This document shows, piece after piece, positions 20,749 to 49,843 of a DNA stretch of 56,669 bases. The notes beneath the pieces are model-generated. The model searched no databases, was not told the origin of the DNA, and saw only the letters and a list, made by a program, of their open reading frames with translations. The stretch covers positions 1-56,669 of the IMG/VR virus record IMGVR_UViG_3300008113_000379. One strand, written 5' to 3'. Source of the stretch: a virus. Every line of letters begins with the position of its first letter. The stretch's first letter is position 1. Position numbers and translations under genes: made by a program.

Positions 20749-21039
20749 TCAAACAGCAAACGAACTCCCGCACCCGCAGGTACTAGTTGCTGAGGGGTTC
20801 TTTATTTTGAATTCTGCCCCCTGTAGATATTGAGCCGACATTGCGTCAACCAGGACACTTGCGGCACCTGCATCAAATTCAAAATCGTCCTCGTTTTTCA
20901 TCTCGTCTAATGTGAATCCATAGCTGAATCCTGAGCATCCGCCACCTTGAACAAACATACGTAATTTCATGTTGGGGTTGTTCTCTTCCGCTATAATATC
21001 TGCTATTTTGACACTTGCTGATTCTGTAATAGTTATCAT
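20749..21039 (-). CDS. erpA: ErpA-type A-type Fe-S carrier
   Basis: A 96-aa A-type carrier that accepts a [4Fe-4S] or [2Fe-2S] cluster from IscU and hands it to apo-enzymes. The three ligand cysteines are present: C35 in [13 protein letters not shown] and C88/C90 in T-C-G-C-G-S-S-F. The G-G-G-C-S-G-F-x-Y-G-F block and the A-T-S-T-C-G-C-G end follow ErpA rather than IscA. It is shorter than E. coli ErpA (114 aa), mainly at the N-terminus. It overlaps the end of iscA by four bases, so the two are co-translated. Confidence 0.9.
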
Positions 21040-21359
21040 ACTCTAAAACTTTCTCCGCATCCACAGCGGTCACGTTCATTCGGGTTACCAAATTCAAACC
21101 CTTCATTCAGTCCATTACGGACATAATCTACTGTCATTCCCTTTAAATATATATCATGTTTCTTATCCACTAATACACAAAAGTTAGGTTGAGCATAGTT
21201 AATAGTGGAAAAATCTGAGGTATACTCTTTGACGTATTCTAAAACATAAGCTAGTCCACTACACCCTGTAGTTTTTACCCCTATCTTTATACCAACATGA
21301 CTGGTAGAGTTCAACAGTTTTTCTATCTTCTCTGTGGCTTTGTTAGTGAATGTTATCAT
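21036..21359 (-). CDS. iscA: IscA, A-type Fe-S carrier
   Basis: A 107-aa, full-length IscA. C33 sits in [10 protein letters not shown] and C99/C101 in R-C-G-C-G-E-S-F, matching E. coli C35, C99 and C101. The [13 protein letters not shown] segment is typical of IscA. IscA binds iron or a cluster and supplies [4Fe-4S] targets. Its start lies 17 bases inside the iscU gene. Together with ErpA-type and IscU genes it forms a nearly complete scaffold-carrier set lacking the cysteine desulfurase IscS. Confidence 0.93.
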
Positions 21360-21726
21360 GTTTCTTTTTATAGTCAGCTACCGCGGCCTTGATGGCGTCT
21401 TCGGCGAGGATGGAACAATGAATTTTGACTGGTGGGAGAGCAAGTTCTTCAGCAATTTTGCTATTTCGTATGGATCCTGCTTCTTCAAGTGTTCTACCTT
21501 TGATCCATTCCGTAATGAGGCTAGAACTTGCGATTGCTGATCCACAGCCGTATGTTTTGAATTTTGCATCTATGATTACTCCATCCTCAACTTTAATTTG
21601 TAATTTCATTACATCACCGCATGCCGGTGCACCCACCATTCCTGTACCAATAGTATCGTCTATTTCAAATTTACCTACATTGCGTGGATTTTCATAATGG
21701 TCTATAACTTTATCTGAATATGCCAT
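21343..21726 (-). CDS. iscU: IscU, Fe-S cluster scaffold
   Basis: A 127-aa IscU with every functional residue visible: C36, D38, C61 and C104 (E. coli C37, D39, C63, C106), and the L-P-P-V-K chaperone-recognition motif at 97-101. IscU receives sulfur from the cysteine desulfurase IscS and iron to build [2Fe-2S] clusters; the HscA chaperone binds LPPVK to release them. The phage protein should therefore work with host IscS and host or phage Hsp70 (a DnaK gene lies at 46443). It is preceded by SOD and GNAT genes in the same direction with overlaps or 3-4-base gaps. Confidence 0.95.
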   Translation of the reverse strand: MAYSDKVIDHYENPRNVGKFEIDDTIGTGMVGAPACGDVMKLQIKVEDGVIIDAKFKTYGCGSAIASSSLITEWIKGRTLEEAGSIRNSKIAEELALPPVKIHCSILAEDAIKAAVADYKKKHDNIH

Positions 21727-21729
21727 ATA

Positions 21730-22074
21730 TTAACTCTCTTCCCAAACACGAACATCTTCACCGCGATGTTTATTCCAGAAGCCTGCACCTGCATCAGTTT
21801 GGTCCCAGCTTCTAACAATAGTATAGCCAAGTTTTTTGACGTAATCGTACATGACCTTAGCAATACCTTGCCTTTGATATTTCTCATTGACCCATAAATC
21901 TTGTGGGTCTAGTTCCTTGTCATCCCCTATATAGAATGTAACGTGACCTAGTACGTTATTTCCCCAGTCATCAAGGGCATCAACCATTAACTCATAGTTG
22001 TTTTTGCTTACTTTTAAAGTTAGACCCTGATAATCAACGGTCTTGGCTTCAATGATAAATTCGCTAGCCCTCAT
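21730..22074 (-). CDS. GNAT acetyltransferase with capsid-targeting-like N-terminus
   Basis: A 114-aa GNAT-fold protein. D-L-W-V-N-E-K-Y-Q-R-Q-G-I-A-K-V-M (residues ~63-79) includes the acetyl-CoA pyrophosphate loop Q-R-Q-G-I-A. The substrate is unknown. The N-terminus M-R-A-S-E-F-I-I-E-A resembles T4 internal-protein targeting peptides, cut after I-x-E. That would make it a virion-packaged enzyme (inference). It overlaps the 59-aa gene by ATGA and is three bases from iscU. Confidence 0.8.
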   Translation of the reverse strand: MRASEFIIEAKTVDYQGLTLKVSKNNYELMVDALDDWGNNVLGHVTFYIGDDKELDPQDLWVNEKYQRQGIAKVMYDYVKKLGYTIVRSWDQTDAGAGFWNKHRGEDVRVWEES

Positions 22075-22250
22075 GATTTTGATTTTTCAACTGATTGCAC
22101 ATTATCTTTGCCAAACATTTTCCCCAATAACATTTTTGCATGACTTGGAGAATCAGCATGAATTATTGTTTTTACTGTTGAACCCTCAACTTTTACAGTG
22201 GCGTTATATTTGTTAAGAGAAGATTCTGTTATAAATTCTCCGGCTCTCAT
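22071..22250 (-). CDS. Small protein with capsid-targeting-like N-terminus
   Basis: A 59-aa protein beginning M-R-A-G-E-F-I-T-E-S, nearly the same start as the GNAT enzyme that follows. The rest is one alpha/beta unit (V-K-T-I-I-H-A-D-S-P-S-H-A-K-M-L-L) ending in a charged tail. It overlaps SOD and GNAT by ATGA at both ends, so it is translated as part of that operon. Function unknown; packaging into the head is a possibility. Confidence 0.75.
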   Translation of the reverse strand: MRAGEFITESSLNKYNATVKVEGSTVKTIIHADSPSHAKMLLGKMFGKDNVQSVEKSKS

Positions 22251-22798
22251 AGATTCTTCCCCCAGCGTGTGTTAATATGACCCCAGTTCATTATCTTCCA
22301 AATATTTTCTAGGTATTGTTTCTTGTTTGCTTGATAGTCTAATGCCCAAGCATGTTCCCACCAGTCAATTAATATCAATATATCATCACGAACCTCGTGG
22401 TTCACGATAGTTTTAATTTCCCCGTTGTATGACATGTAAACCCAACCACTACCTTGTATCTTCATGGCTTCTAGTTTGAATTGTTCTTTAAAATCTTTCC
22501 ACCACCCATATCTACGTTTGATTAAATTTAGTACAGGGCCGTTGGGTGTGTTATTATCTCTAGGTTCACGGAACTGACTGAAATATATGTTATGCAGTAT
22601 TGCCCCTGCATAATTAAAATCTGTATCACCTTCATCGTTATTGTATCGTCTAGCATAACCATGGGCTAAATCACCATAGTGATACTCCATAGTCGCTTTG
22701 CTTAATACTGGATTGAGGTTGGAAAGGTCATAGGATAGTTTATCTATCTCTATGTTCCTAGTATTTGCTTCGGTAATTCTCTCTATAATATCATACAT
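22247..22798 (-). CDS. Fe/Mn superoxide dismutase with N-terminal extension
   Basis: A 183-aa SOD of the Fe/Mn family, converting superoxide to H2O2 and O2. The metal ligands can be placed: H40 (E-Y-H-Y-G), H69 (I-L-H-N-I-Y-F), D145 and H149 (D-W-W-E-H-A-W). D-Y-Q-A-N-K-K-Q-Y-L follows as in true SODs. The first ~18 residues (M-Y-D-I-I-E-R-I-T-E-A) precede the normal SOD start and look like a T4-type targeting peptide with an I-T-E|A cut site. A late box ends seven bases before the ATG and there is no ribosome site. It heads the operon running to the ErpA-type gene. Confidence 0.88.
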   Translation of the reverse strand: MYDIIERITEANTRNIEIDKLSYDLSNLNPVLSKATMEYHYGDLAHGYARRYNNDEGDTDFNYAGAILHNIYFSQFREPRDNNTPNGPVLNLIKRRYGWWKDFKEQFKLEAMKIQGSGWVYMSYNGEIKTIVNHEVRDDILILIDWWEHAWALDYQANKKQYLENIWKIMNWGHINTRWGKNL

Positions 22799-22805
22799 TA
22801 TAGAG

Positions 22806-22813
22806 TATTTATC
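22806..22813 (-). promoter_or_regulatory. Late promoter box (GATAAATA) heading the SOD/Fe-S operon
   Basis: Seven bases separate the box from the SOD ATG at 22798. The next five genes overlap or nearly touch, so this box probably drives SOD through the ErpA-type gene. Confidence 0.75.
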
Positions 22814-24453: not shown

Positions 24454-24669
24454 TTATCGTCTGCGGGTGATTCTACCTTTAGTTAGGTCATAGGGGCTGA
24501 ATTCTACTTCAACAGTATCGCCCAATAAAATTTTAATATCATGTTTACGCATACGGCCTGATATATAGCCTATAACAGTTGGACCTGCTTGCATTGCTAC
24601 TTTAAACATAGCATTGGGTAATACGTCTATTACCTTACCGTCCATCTTTATACCTTCTTCTTTTGCCAT
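24454..24669 (-). CDS. infA: Translation initiation factor IF-1
   Basis: A 71-aa S1-fold protein that is clearly IF-1: [21 protein letters not shown] and [13 protein letters not shown] all match the bacterial family. IF-1 binds the 30S A site and tunes start-codon selection with IF-2 and IF-3. The length equals the host form (72 aa). AAAGGAG precedes the ATG. It ends a three-gene unit driven from the promoter at 25384-25412. It may change which messages the host ribosome prefers (inference). Confidence 0.96.
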
Positions 24670-46442: not shown

Positions 46443-48320
46443 TTAGGCTGTTTCTTTAACTTCGGCATCAACCACAGTATCATCTTTGTTCTGTGATTTC
46501 TGTTCTTCTTCAAGTTTAACTTTAGTAATAGGACCTATCACATCGTATAGTTCCTTAACACCAGTTTCAATCTTTTCTTTATCGTCACCTACGATAGCGG
46601 TATCAAGATTTGTGATAGCGGCTTCAATCTTTTCTTTTTCTTCGTCAGTGATTTTGTCACTATACTTGGTAAAGTCATTGCGGAACCCGTTAAGAGTGGA
46701 TTCTGCCACATTACGTGTTTGAATCAATTCAACTATTTTCTTATCTGCCTCAGCATTTTCTTCTGCCTCACTAACCATCTTTTGAATTTCTGCTTCTGTC
46801 AATCCACTATCTGATTTGATGGTAATCTTATTCTCTTTTCCAGTACCTTTGTCTTTAGCACTGATATGCATAATACCATTTGCGTCAATATCAAATGTAA
46901 CTTCAACTTGAGGCATACCTCTTGGCGCTGGTGCAATACCTTCTAAGTTAAACTCGCCTAAATGTTTATTGTGTGTAAACAACTCACGCTCACCTTGACC
47001 AACTTTAATAGTAACTGCCGGTTGATTGTCTTGTGCAGTACTAAATGTTTGACTAGCCTTAGTTGGAATAGTTGTATTCTTTTGGATAACTTTAGTGAAT
47101 ACACCACCTAGTGTTTCAATACCTAAACTTAATGGTGTAACATCAAGTAACAATACATCTGTTCTATCACCTGCTAACACAGCACCTTGTACTGCGGCAC
47201 CAACTGCAACTGCTTCATCTGGATTTACATCCTTACGAGGTGCTTTACCAAACAATTTTTCAACTGCTTCTTGTACTTTAGGCATGCGTGTCATGCCACC
47301 AACTAGAATAACTTCGTCAATATCACTACTTGTAACTCCAGCATCACGCATGGCGATTTCGCAAGGTTTAATACTGCGCTGGATTAGTTCATCAACTAGG
47401 CTTTCTAGCTTGGCACGACTCAGTTTGATGTTCATGTGCTTAGGACCATTTGCATCTGCTGTAATATAAGGCAAATTAACATCGGTCTGGCTACTACTAC
47501 TCAATTCTATTTTAGCTTTTTCACTAGATTCTTTTAATCGTTGTAATGCTAATACATCTTTGGTTAAATCAACACCAGTATCCTTTTTGAATTCTTCTAC
47601 TAAGAAATCCATGATTCGTTGGTCAAAATCTTCACCACCTAGGAATGTATCACCATTTGTAGATAATACTTCGATTTGCTTATCACCATCAACGTCTGCT
47701 AACTCAATGATTGATACGTCAAACGTACCACCGCCTAGGTCATATACAGCAATTTTACGGTCACGCTTTTCCTGTTTATCTACACCATACGCCAGTGCGG
47801 CTGCTGTAGGTTCGTTAATGATACGCAACACTTCTAGTCCAGCGATACGGCCGGCATCTTTGGTCGCCTGTCTTTGACTATCATTAAAATAAGCGGGAAC
47901 AGTAATAACTGCTTGTGTAACTTCATGACCTAGATAATCTTCCGCAGTCTTTTTCATTTTGCGTAAGACTTCTGCTGACACTTGCGGTGGTGCCAATTTT
48001 TTATCTTGTGCTTGAATCCAAGCATCACCATTTTCATTTTCAATGATACTATATGGCATCAAATCAATATCTTTTTGCACAGCCTGTTCATTGAACTTAC
48101 GTCCAATTAAACGTTTGCTTGCATAAATTGTGTTCTTTGGATTTGTAACTGCTTGGCGTTTGGCGCTTGCACCAACCAAGATTTCATCGTTTGCGTAGGC
48201 AACGATTGAGGGTGTTGTTCTAGCACCTTCTGAATTTTCAATTACTTTGGGATTGCCATTCTCAATAATGGCTACGCATGAATTTGTGGTACCCAAGTCG
48301 ATACCTATGACTTTGCTCAT
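46443..48320 (-). CDS. dnaK: DnaK (Hsp70 chaperone)
   Basis: A 625-aa full-length Hsp70. [12 protein letters not shown] starts the ATPase domain; [23 protein letters not shown] and V-G-G-M-T-R-M-P mark its later motifs. The linker [13 protein letters not shown] precedes the substrate domain, and the tail ends V-D-A-E-V-K-E-T-A. It is DnaK rather than HscA. DnaJ and GrpE would come from the host; neither is in the window. It has its own promoter at 48377-48405. Confidence 0.97.
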
Positions 48321-48375
48321 TTTGTTTCTCCTTTAAAAAGCAAGACTTAACTGTAGACCTTTACAGCATCTACAT
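48321..48375 (-). promoter_or_regulatory. Candidate ROSE-like RNA thermometer of dnaK
   Basis: GTCTTGCTTTTTAAAGGAG lies directly before the start codon, nearly the same as in the hsp20 leader. TTGCT is positioned to pair with AGGA. A further hairpin (TGTAGA/TCTACA, 48352-48374) lies upstream. Confidence 0.48.
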
Positions 48376-48376
48376 G

Positions 48377-48405
48377 TATATATCTATTTTAGATGATTGC
48401 GTAAA
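48377..48405 (-). promoter_or_regulatory. Sigma-70 promoter of dnaK
   Basis: TTTACG (48400-48405), 17 bases and TATATA (48377-48382). No sigma-32-type sequence (CTTGAA...CCCCAT) was seen. Confidence 0.65.
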
Positions 48406-48425
48406 ATATTTGTATATTATTCGGG

Positions 48426-48647
48426 TTAATACATTTTTGGGGGAAGTTGCTGGTCACGCAAATACTTTTTCCAACGGCGCTTAGCCTGACCATGGGCTAA
48501 TTTTCTTTTTACTGTGGGTTTTACAAATTCTTGACGGTCACGGACCTCTTGAAGAAGGCCAGTCTCACTTACCTTTTTCTTTAGTTTACGCAATGCTTTT
48601 TCAACGTTTCCGTCATGCACTTGAATTTTTCTTCCTTTTGGCATCAT
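48426..48647 (-). CDS. rpsU: Ribosomal protein bS21
   Basis: A 73-aa bS21: V-E-K-A-L-R-K-L-K-K-K-V-S-E-T-G, then R-K-L-A-H-G-Q-A-K-R-R-W-K-K. bS21 sits on the 30S platform beside the anti-Shine-Dalgarno and helps initiation. Phage bS21 genes are known from metagenomic phages and probably exchange with the host copy. It overlaps the clpX stop by four bases, an arrangement suggesting joint expression of both. Confidence 0.95.
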   Translation of the reverse strand: MMPKGRKIQVHDGNVEKALRKLKKKVSETGLLQEVRDRQEFVKPTVKRKLAHGQAKRRWKKYLRDQQLPPKMY

Positions 48648-49843
48648 ATGATAGGTTTAGGGTTAATTACTTGTTCCCTATCTATATTTAGTAGTTTCAC
48701 CTTGTTCTTGCGGTATTTTTTAGTATGATACATATGACACATCAATACACGTTCAATCTCAGTGTGTAATCCACGTGCGCCTGTTTTTAACGTTAATGTG
48801 TTCTCAGCAATTTGATCCAGTGCTTCTGTAGTGAATGTTAGTTCAATTTCGTCTAATTTTAACAAATATTTGTACTGACTGACGTAATTGTTCTTAACGT
48901 CTGTTAAAATTTTGATTAGTTGTTCTTTGTTTAATTCTTGGATACTGACTGTAGTAGTAAATCTACCTATAAATTCAGGAATCATTCCATATTTGGTCAG
49001 GTCATCTGGACTTACTTTAGTTAAATCACCTTCAACTTTGTTATCCTTGATATCGGCACCGAATCCAATGCTGGTTCCATTAGTACGTTTTGCGATAACA
49101 TCTTTGAGACCCACGAATGCACCACCGGCAATGAATAGAATGTTTTTTGTATCAATTTCATTCATGTCATTACCAGGATGTTTTCTTCCGCCCTGACTAG
49201 AAATTCTACATATAGTACCTTCAACTAACTTGAGTAACGCTTGTTGTACACCTTCACCTGATACATCACGTGTGATACTGGTGCTCTCACCTTTACGTGC
49301 AATTTTATCAATTTCATCAATAAAAATTATTCCACGTTCCGCAAGTTGTTTGTCACCATTGGCAGCATTTACTAGCATATTAATCATTGATTCAACGTCA
49401 TCACCAACATACCCTGCCTCAGTTAAACTTGTGGCATCAGCAACAATAAAGGGCACTTTGAGATACTTAGCCGCAGTCTTAGCAAGCAATGTTTTACCAC
49501 TACCTGTGGGGCCTACAATAAGTACGTTGCCCTTTTGAATCTCTAAGTCTTTGGGAGGATTGTTGATCCTTTTATAGTGATTGGCAATCGCCACACTAAG
49601 AACCATTTTAGCATCATCTTGACCAATTACATGCTGGTCAAGATAATCTTTAATTGATTCAGGATCAAACTCGGGTTGAATGTCATCATTATGTTCTGAT
49701 ATTTCATCAATAATTAAGTCTTGGCATAACTCTACGCAATCACTGCATATAGCTACTGTTCCTCCTACGACTAATTTTTTGACGCCATCTTTGTGTGCCC
49801 CACAAAAACTGCAATGATTGATTTGTTTAGTTTCTTCGGTCAT
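48644..49843 (-). CDS. clpX: ClpX unfoldase
   Basis: A 399-aa ClpX. An N-terminal zinc-binding domain (C-S-F-C-G-A-H ... C-S-D-C-V, residues ~9-37) precedes an AAA+ core with Walker A G-P-T-G-S-G-K-T near 110, pore loop G-Y-V-G-D-D near 148, Walker B I-I-F-I-D-E-I-D and Q-G-G-R-K-H. The I-G-F docking tripeptide for ClpP is present (T-S-I-G-F-G-A-D-I). It can thus unfold substrates into ClpP. Slightly shorter than E. coli ClpX (424 aa). It has no ribosome site and is read from the promoter at 49878. Confidence 0.97.

Follow-up and report, generated by a model that had tools for sequence, protein, structure and literature searches.

In bacteriophage T4, ten leader residues suffice to package foreign proteins into the head and the protease gp21 cuts after L/I-X-E (PMC9026906); the ADP-ribosyltransferase Alt is one of the packaged T4 proteins (PMC9026906, PMC5512222). 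Multidomain phage proteins that are injected into the host are known as polyvalent proteins (PMC5512222). The chlorovirus PBCV-1 expresses a superoxide dismutase (SOD) late and packages it into the virion, and cells infected with this virus contain less superoxide than cells infected with a SOD-lacking virus (PMC7019647). Here, we analyzed a 56,669-base IMG/VR virus record (the window), which is a fragment and in which an Fe/Mn SOD, a 59-aa protein and a GNAT acetyltransferase are encoded side by side. Judged by their N-terminal sequences, these three proteins very probably carry T4-type capsid-targeting propeptides; they would be made late and packed in the prohead, where its protease would cut them, and would be delivered on infection.

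The three genes are located on the minus strand in the order SOD, 59-aa protein and GNAT (Table 1). They overlap successively by 4 nt (ATGA) in what was originally noted as one late operon, and the three N-termini described in the original prediction match the reading frames exactly: MYDIIERITEANTRN... for SOD, MRAGEFITESSLNKY... for the 59-aa protein and MRASEFIIEAKTVDY... for GNAT. The corresponding I-x-E sites, with the predicted cut marked by a slash, are ITE/A in SOD, IIE/A in GNAT and ITE/S in the 59-aa protein, for which no Pfam family was found. A NifU/IscU-type gene starts 3 nt after the end of the GNAT gene and, being untagged, serves as an internal negative control within the SOD operon.

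Table 1. Positions of the SOD operon features and of a further candidate gene in the window
Feature	Position	Strand	Basis
T4-late-promoter-like octamer GATAAATA	22806..22813	-	7 nt before SOD start; recurs before SOD in relatives
Fe/Mn superoxide dismutase, 183 aa, about 16 extra N-terminal residues	22247..22798	-	Pfam Sod_Fe_N and Sod_Fe_C, metal ligands, AlphaFold model, PDB Fe-SOD matches
Predicted capsid-targeting peptide of SOD, MYDIIERITE/A	22769..22798	-	cut-site conservation in relatives; pLDDT <50 at residues 1-12
59-aa protein, one small module	22071..22250	-	homologues in L067, L357-L359
Predicted capsid-targeting peptide of the 59-aa protein, MRAGEFITE/S	22224..22250	-	sequence
GNAT acetyltransferase, 114 aa	21730..22074	-	Pfam Acetyltransf_1 E 1.7e-6; homology to polyprotein modules
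Predicted capsid-targeting peptide of GNAT, MRASEFIIE/A	22048..22074	-	sequence
NifU/IscU-type scaffold gene, same operon, no tag	21343..21726	-	Pfam NifU_N
Possible fourth tagged protein, 380 aa	42855..43997	+	beside ClpP-like reading frame; PHROG 12709

Downstream of the tagged genes, the SOD operon continues with the NifU/IscU-type gene and two IscA-like Fe-S assembly genes (20749-21726). No tag was found on the NifU and IscA-like proteins of this operon; ITE/S in one IscA-like start is presumably the ErpA/IscA family's own sequence. The genes beyond the IscA-like pair appear tail-fibre-like, judged by their repetitive sequence. A gene for a phage translation initiation factor IF-1 (Pfam eIF-1a, E 5e-22) is located near the operon at 24454-24669 and adjoins SOD in many relatives, and DnaK-like and ClpX-like proteins are encoded at 46443-49843.

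Since the octamer GATAAATA ends just 7 nt before the SOD ATG, its transcript would be an almost leaderless mRNA. Upstream of tagged genes in general such octamers were not enriched (11/145 versus 125/1097), which rules them out as a marker of tagged genes, and the octamer was retained as a pre-SOD feature only.

Both Fe/Mn SOD domains were recovered in the Pfam search. Residues H40, H69, D145 and H149, the equivalents of the four metal ligands of E. coli SodB, were invariant in 29 aligned phage SODs, and by sequence the window protein is an Fe/Mn SOD with intact fold and metal ligands, a predicted enzyme. The alignment to the best-matching solved Fe-SOD in the PDB begins at residue 17, and the first 16 residues fall ahead of any homology. 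In the AlphaFold model (pLDDT 90.6, 27 sequences) residues 1-12 are the only part with pLDDT <50, with a low-confidence helix at residues 3-11; in this model a short predicted propeptide precedes the folded SOD, whose core starts at about residue 17.

The leader was compared across 46 related loci, from which 11 non-redundant leaders were obtained after removal of near-identical ones. Among the sequences found were MYDIVEKISES, MYDVVEKLEES, MFEFLSES, MYNFIRQITEG, MYNFIKTIAEG, MTQNFIKDFILQES and others. An [ILVMF]xE[AGS] site, with the Glu at residue 6-16, was present in 10 of the 11, while after shuffling a mean of 0.56 leaders had such a site, with a maximum of 5 in 20,000 trials. The SOD leader diverges freely yet keeps a putative cleavage site, a hydrophobic residue, any residue and Glu followed by a small residue. 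The SODs that belong to a more distant lineage (L040, L042-L044, L046, L047) have no leader and start at the SOD core. The SOD of Vibrio phage 2.275.O (L049 4968-5537) has no N-terminal leader either; it is extended at the C-terminus by a stretch with KMLDE/SVNIRHLINFISK, a possible prohead-protease site analogous to the C-terminal one of T4 Alt.

A search of the rest of the genome for more MRAxEFI starts had also been suggested. In the window, a possible fourth tagged protein was found, the 380-aa protein of Table 1, and its slot is occupied by other tagged proteins in relatives. With 3 matches at ≤3 mismatches versus 1.25 expected by shuffling, the window-only motif scan is too weak to serve as evidence. 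Relatives were searched with a degenerate DNA pattern for M-[RK]-x-x-E-F-x-x-E, using the reversed pattern as control. In 16 records chosen for SOD the pattern gave 14 matches and the control 0; among 16 records selected for a tag or linker, the counts were 52 and 0. The 14 versus 0 matches, together with the SOD site in 10/11 leaders against a shuffle mean of 0.56, make the relatives decisive over chance.

A scan of IMG/VR for MRAxEFIxE returned at least 146 matches; among the matches listed, 141 stood at the start of ORFs of at least 45 aa, and the tag codons varied synonymously. Within the window, too, the two MRA tags show several synonymous codon differences, and thus the peptide is conserved, not the DNA. 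The MRA tag conserves F6-I7, displaced by one position relative to T4 (IPIII targeting residues 4 and 7), and its residue 4 is mostly R/K. The relative with the GNAT nearest to that of the window (89% identity), the 367-kb record G038, carries SOD followed by three overlapping tagged genes (MRASEFITE/A, MRASEFITE/A and MRATEFITE/A). In G038, and likewise in G001, tags are found on unrelated genes located far apart within one genome. Overlapping genes and the slot downstream of SOD, which is hypervariable among relatives, would suit similar starts that arose as a functionless by-product of duplication or recombination in one operon. We consider such an origin highly improbable, since the tag codons vary freely, the tags within G001 and within G038 recur on unrelated genes far from each other and the SOD leader retains its site while the remainder diverges.

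The tagged proteins are mutually unrelated and include GNAT, a GH19 wall hydrolase, an ADP-ribosyltransferase and ParB-like, GDSL-like, DUF6267 and DUF6321 proteins. Homologues of the 59-aa protein in relatives either stand alone or form the N-terminal module of a 340-aa protein; those of L357 and L358 keep MRLNEF and the Glu is absent. No isolate relatives of GNAT or of a common 130-aa tagged family were found among GenBank phages. That the tag might be constant across marine T4-like phages was ruled out by DUF6267 homologues: the one of HTVC008M starts with MYNDLLVEDK, a short leader ending in E, and in that of P-HM1 no leader was seen.

It is unlikely, in our view, that the leaders instead target another assembly or compartment (baseplate, inner membrane, chaperone or replication focus), with the Glu as part of a short amphipathic helix and no cut. 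Such a role would be consistent with the low-confidence helix at the SOD N-terminus, with 59-aa homologues that have MRLNEF without the Glu and with the cell-wall hydrolases, often tail parts, borne by several tagged proteins. The conserved feature, however, is [ILVMF]xE plus a small residue, which is the known gp21 rule, and the T4 IPI leader, MKTFKEFTSTTTPVSTITE/A in the T4 record, has the same form. A wall hydrolase inside the head also has a precedent in T7, where gp16 is kept there.

Two further observations were made on the tagged genes of relatives. An untagged Dps-like gene (MLADNLKVLLASTETFSLKARNFHWN..., recognized by eye) adjoins tagged genes and 59-aa homologues (L357 1451-1891, L358 1553-1993, L067 18836-19339, L381 6739-7182), a second possible link to oxidative stress. 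In the major capsid protein and in several small tagged proteins, a Glu close to where the mature protein presumably starts is followed by a stretch like [NTS]-A-S-A-G-A-T-[ST]-x-G-[NSG]-[IV]-A (L376 8962-10158, L170 11638-11838, L180 7400-7597, PA5oct 127321-128817).

Capsid targeting of the T4 type calls for a gp21-like protease, for which a search had been suggested. A gp23 search found no head genes in the window, which is a fragment, and the protease was found in the large relative instead: elsewhere in G038, portal, gp67-like, gp21 (S77), gp22 and gp23 genes follow each other in T4 order, gp67 and gp22 being assigned by position. S77 protease and gp23 also occur together in the SOD-bearing G002 (200 kb), in PA5oct and in Vibrio phage 2.275.O, and S77 was present in 7/7 of the tag-scan records of at least 151 kb that were checked. 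Five tag- or linker-bearing records of at least 170 kb, all possibly incomplete, gave no S77 match.

PA5oct, a Pseudomonas jumbo phage, encodes a homologue of the window SOD (EST35_0261, 43% identity over 96% of the query) that starts with MNDSIKKYISIAE/AASSVKK. This protein is annotated as hypothetical and its record carries the note ESI-MS/MS, which is supportive of capsid targeting. The ESI-MS/MS list also includes RNR, thymidylate synthase and DNA ligase, and thus detection is no proof of head location. N-terminal sites were modestly enriched in the ESI-MS/MS set (12/93 versus 7/157, p = 0.016), and with an enrichment of this size the set was put aside as a test of the cut-site rule.

In relatives, the slot after SOD is often occupied by tagged proteins of 428 to 846 aa. 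Several of these polyproteins begin with a GNAT module to which the window GNAT is homologous, followed by ParB-like, LysM and GH19 modules, with KQGVAEG or KQGVVES as the linker between modules. Each of the three window proteins consists of one module; multidomain forms were seen in relatives only. KQGVAEG was also scanned for separately, irrespective of tags. Of the 64 linker ORFs obtained, 26 had a T4-like site at the N-terminus, compared with 100/928 other ORFs of the same loci (p = 5e-9) and 33/253 size-matched ORFs (p = 2e-6). Of the edges of alignments between different polyproteins, 26% lay no more than 12 aa from a linker versus 10% expected, an excess to which the similarity of the linker itself contributes. 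We infer that the linkers, read as KQGVAE/G, would be further prohead-protease sites. By sequence, we give roughly even chances to a cargo code shared by environmental T4-like giant phages, consisting of the N-terminal tag and KQGVAE/G sites, by which the prohead protease would split packaged polyproteins into effectors (acetyltransferases, ParB-like, wall-cutting and ADP-ribosylating proteins) that are injected together with SOD.

Altogether, the comparison with relatives strengthens the original prediction of T4-type capsid targeting through the cut site kept in a drifting leader, the tag on unrelated proteins, the untagged SOD lineage, the gp21-type protease and head module of G038 and the ESI-MS/MS note of PA5oct. 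We infer the following course of packaging, cleavage, ejection and action in the host. The tagged proteins would be synthesized late, alongside the structural proteins, and their leaders would bind the prohead core. The gp21-type (S77) prohead protease would then cut after the Glu of I/L/V-x-E and free the mature enzymes in the head, from which they would be ejected with the DNA into the host. There, in the first minutes and before phage gene expression, SOD would serve to remove superoxide and GNAT to modify host proteins. The GNAT and ADP-ribosyltransferase cargo probably modifies host proteins in general, by analogy with Alt and the GNATs of polyvalent proteins. The window phage, a giant environmental bacteriophage, and its relatives probably carry ready-made enzymes and inject them into their host bacteria.

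For the role of SOD only, the main rival explanation is that the packaged enzyme serves the virion itself, whose DNA and capsid proteins it would keep from being oxidized outside the cell. The Dps-like genes beside tagged genes in relatives suggest an oxidative-stress theme that might suit such a putative role. We hold it to be possible and rather doubtful, given that GNAT and ADP-ribosyltransferase cargo make sense only inside the host and that the packaged late SOD of PBCV-1 lowers superoxide in infected cells (PMC7019647); because of this precedent, SOD action in the newly infected cell is favoured. If capsid targeting is true, a short sequence rule would allow the head-loaded, injected proteins of uncultured giant phages to be read from DNA alone. 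SOD would then count among the proteins that bacteriophages package, and the question arises whether superoxide is limiting in the first minutes after infection. The T4 prohead protease system may also have become a general processing line for cargo polyproteins.

Like the polyvalent proteins of phages and conjugative elements (PMC5512222), the tagged proteins of relatives combine GNAT, ParB-like, LysM and GH19 modules and are predicted to be packaged in the head. They differ from them in the T4-type leader and the repeated KQGVAE/G, which suggest cutting by the prohead protease, and the window's three proteins are single modules, whereas polyvalent proteins have several domains. With the Cu/Zn SOD of PBCV-1 the window protein shares a late, packaged, virus-encoded SOD, packaging being predicted from sequence in the present case; PBCV-1, however, is a eukaryotic virus and its SOD belongs to an unrelated family. 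We know of no comparable leader on the PBCV-1 SOD. EST35_0261 of PA5oct is a homologous SOD with a leader ending in ISIAE/A, although the rest of this leader differs and the gene is not in a tagged-gene operon. IPI, IPII, IPIII and Alt of T4, whose capsid-targeting sequences are cut by gp21, resemble the tagged proteins in that each starts with a short leader containing hydrophobic residues and has an I/L-x-E site at residue 9-19. The kind of protease and the order of head genes are the same in the nearest large relative (G038), and an ADP-ribosyltransferase and small proteins are among the tagged cargo here as in T4. Unlike in T4, the leader is M-R-A-x-E-F-I-x-E instead of M-K-T-x-x-E-F, there are many tagged genes per genome and the cargo includes Fe/Mn SOD and GNATs. 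We judge from the sequences that this locus encodes a predicted variant of T4 capsid targeting, whose cargo is unexpected.
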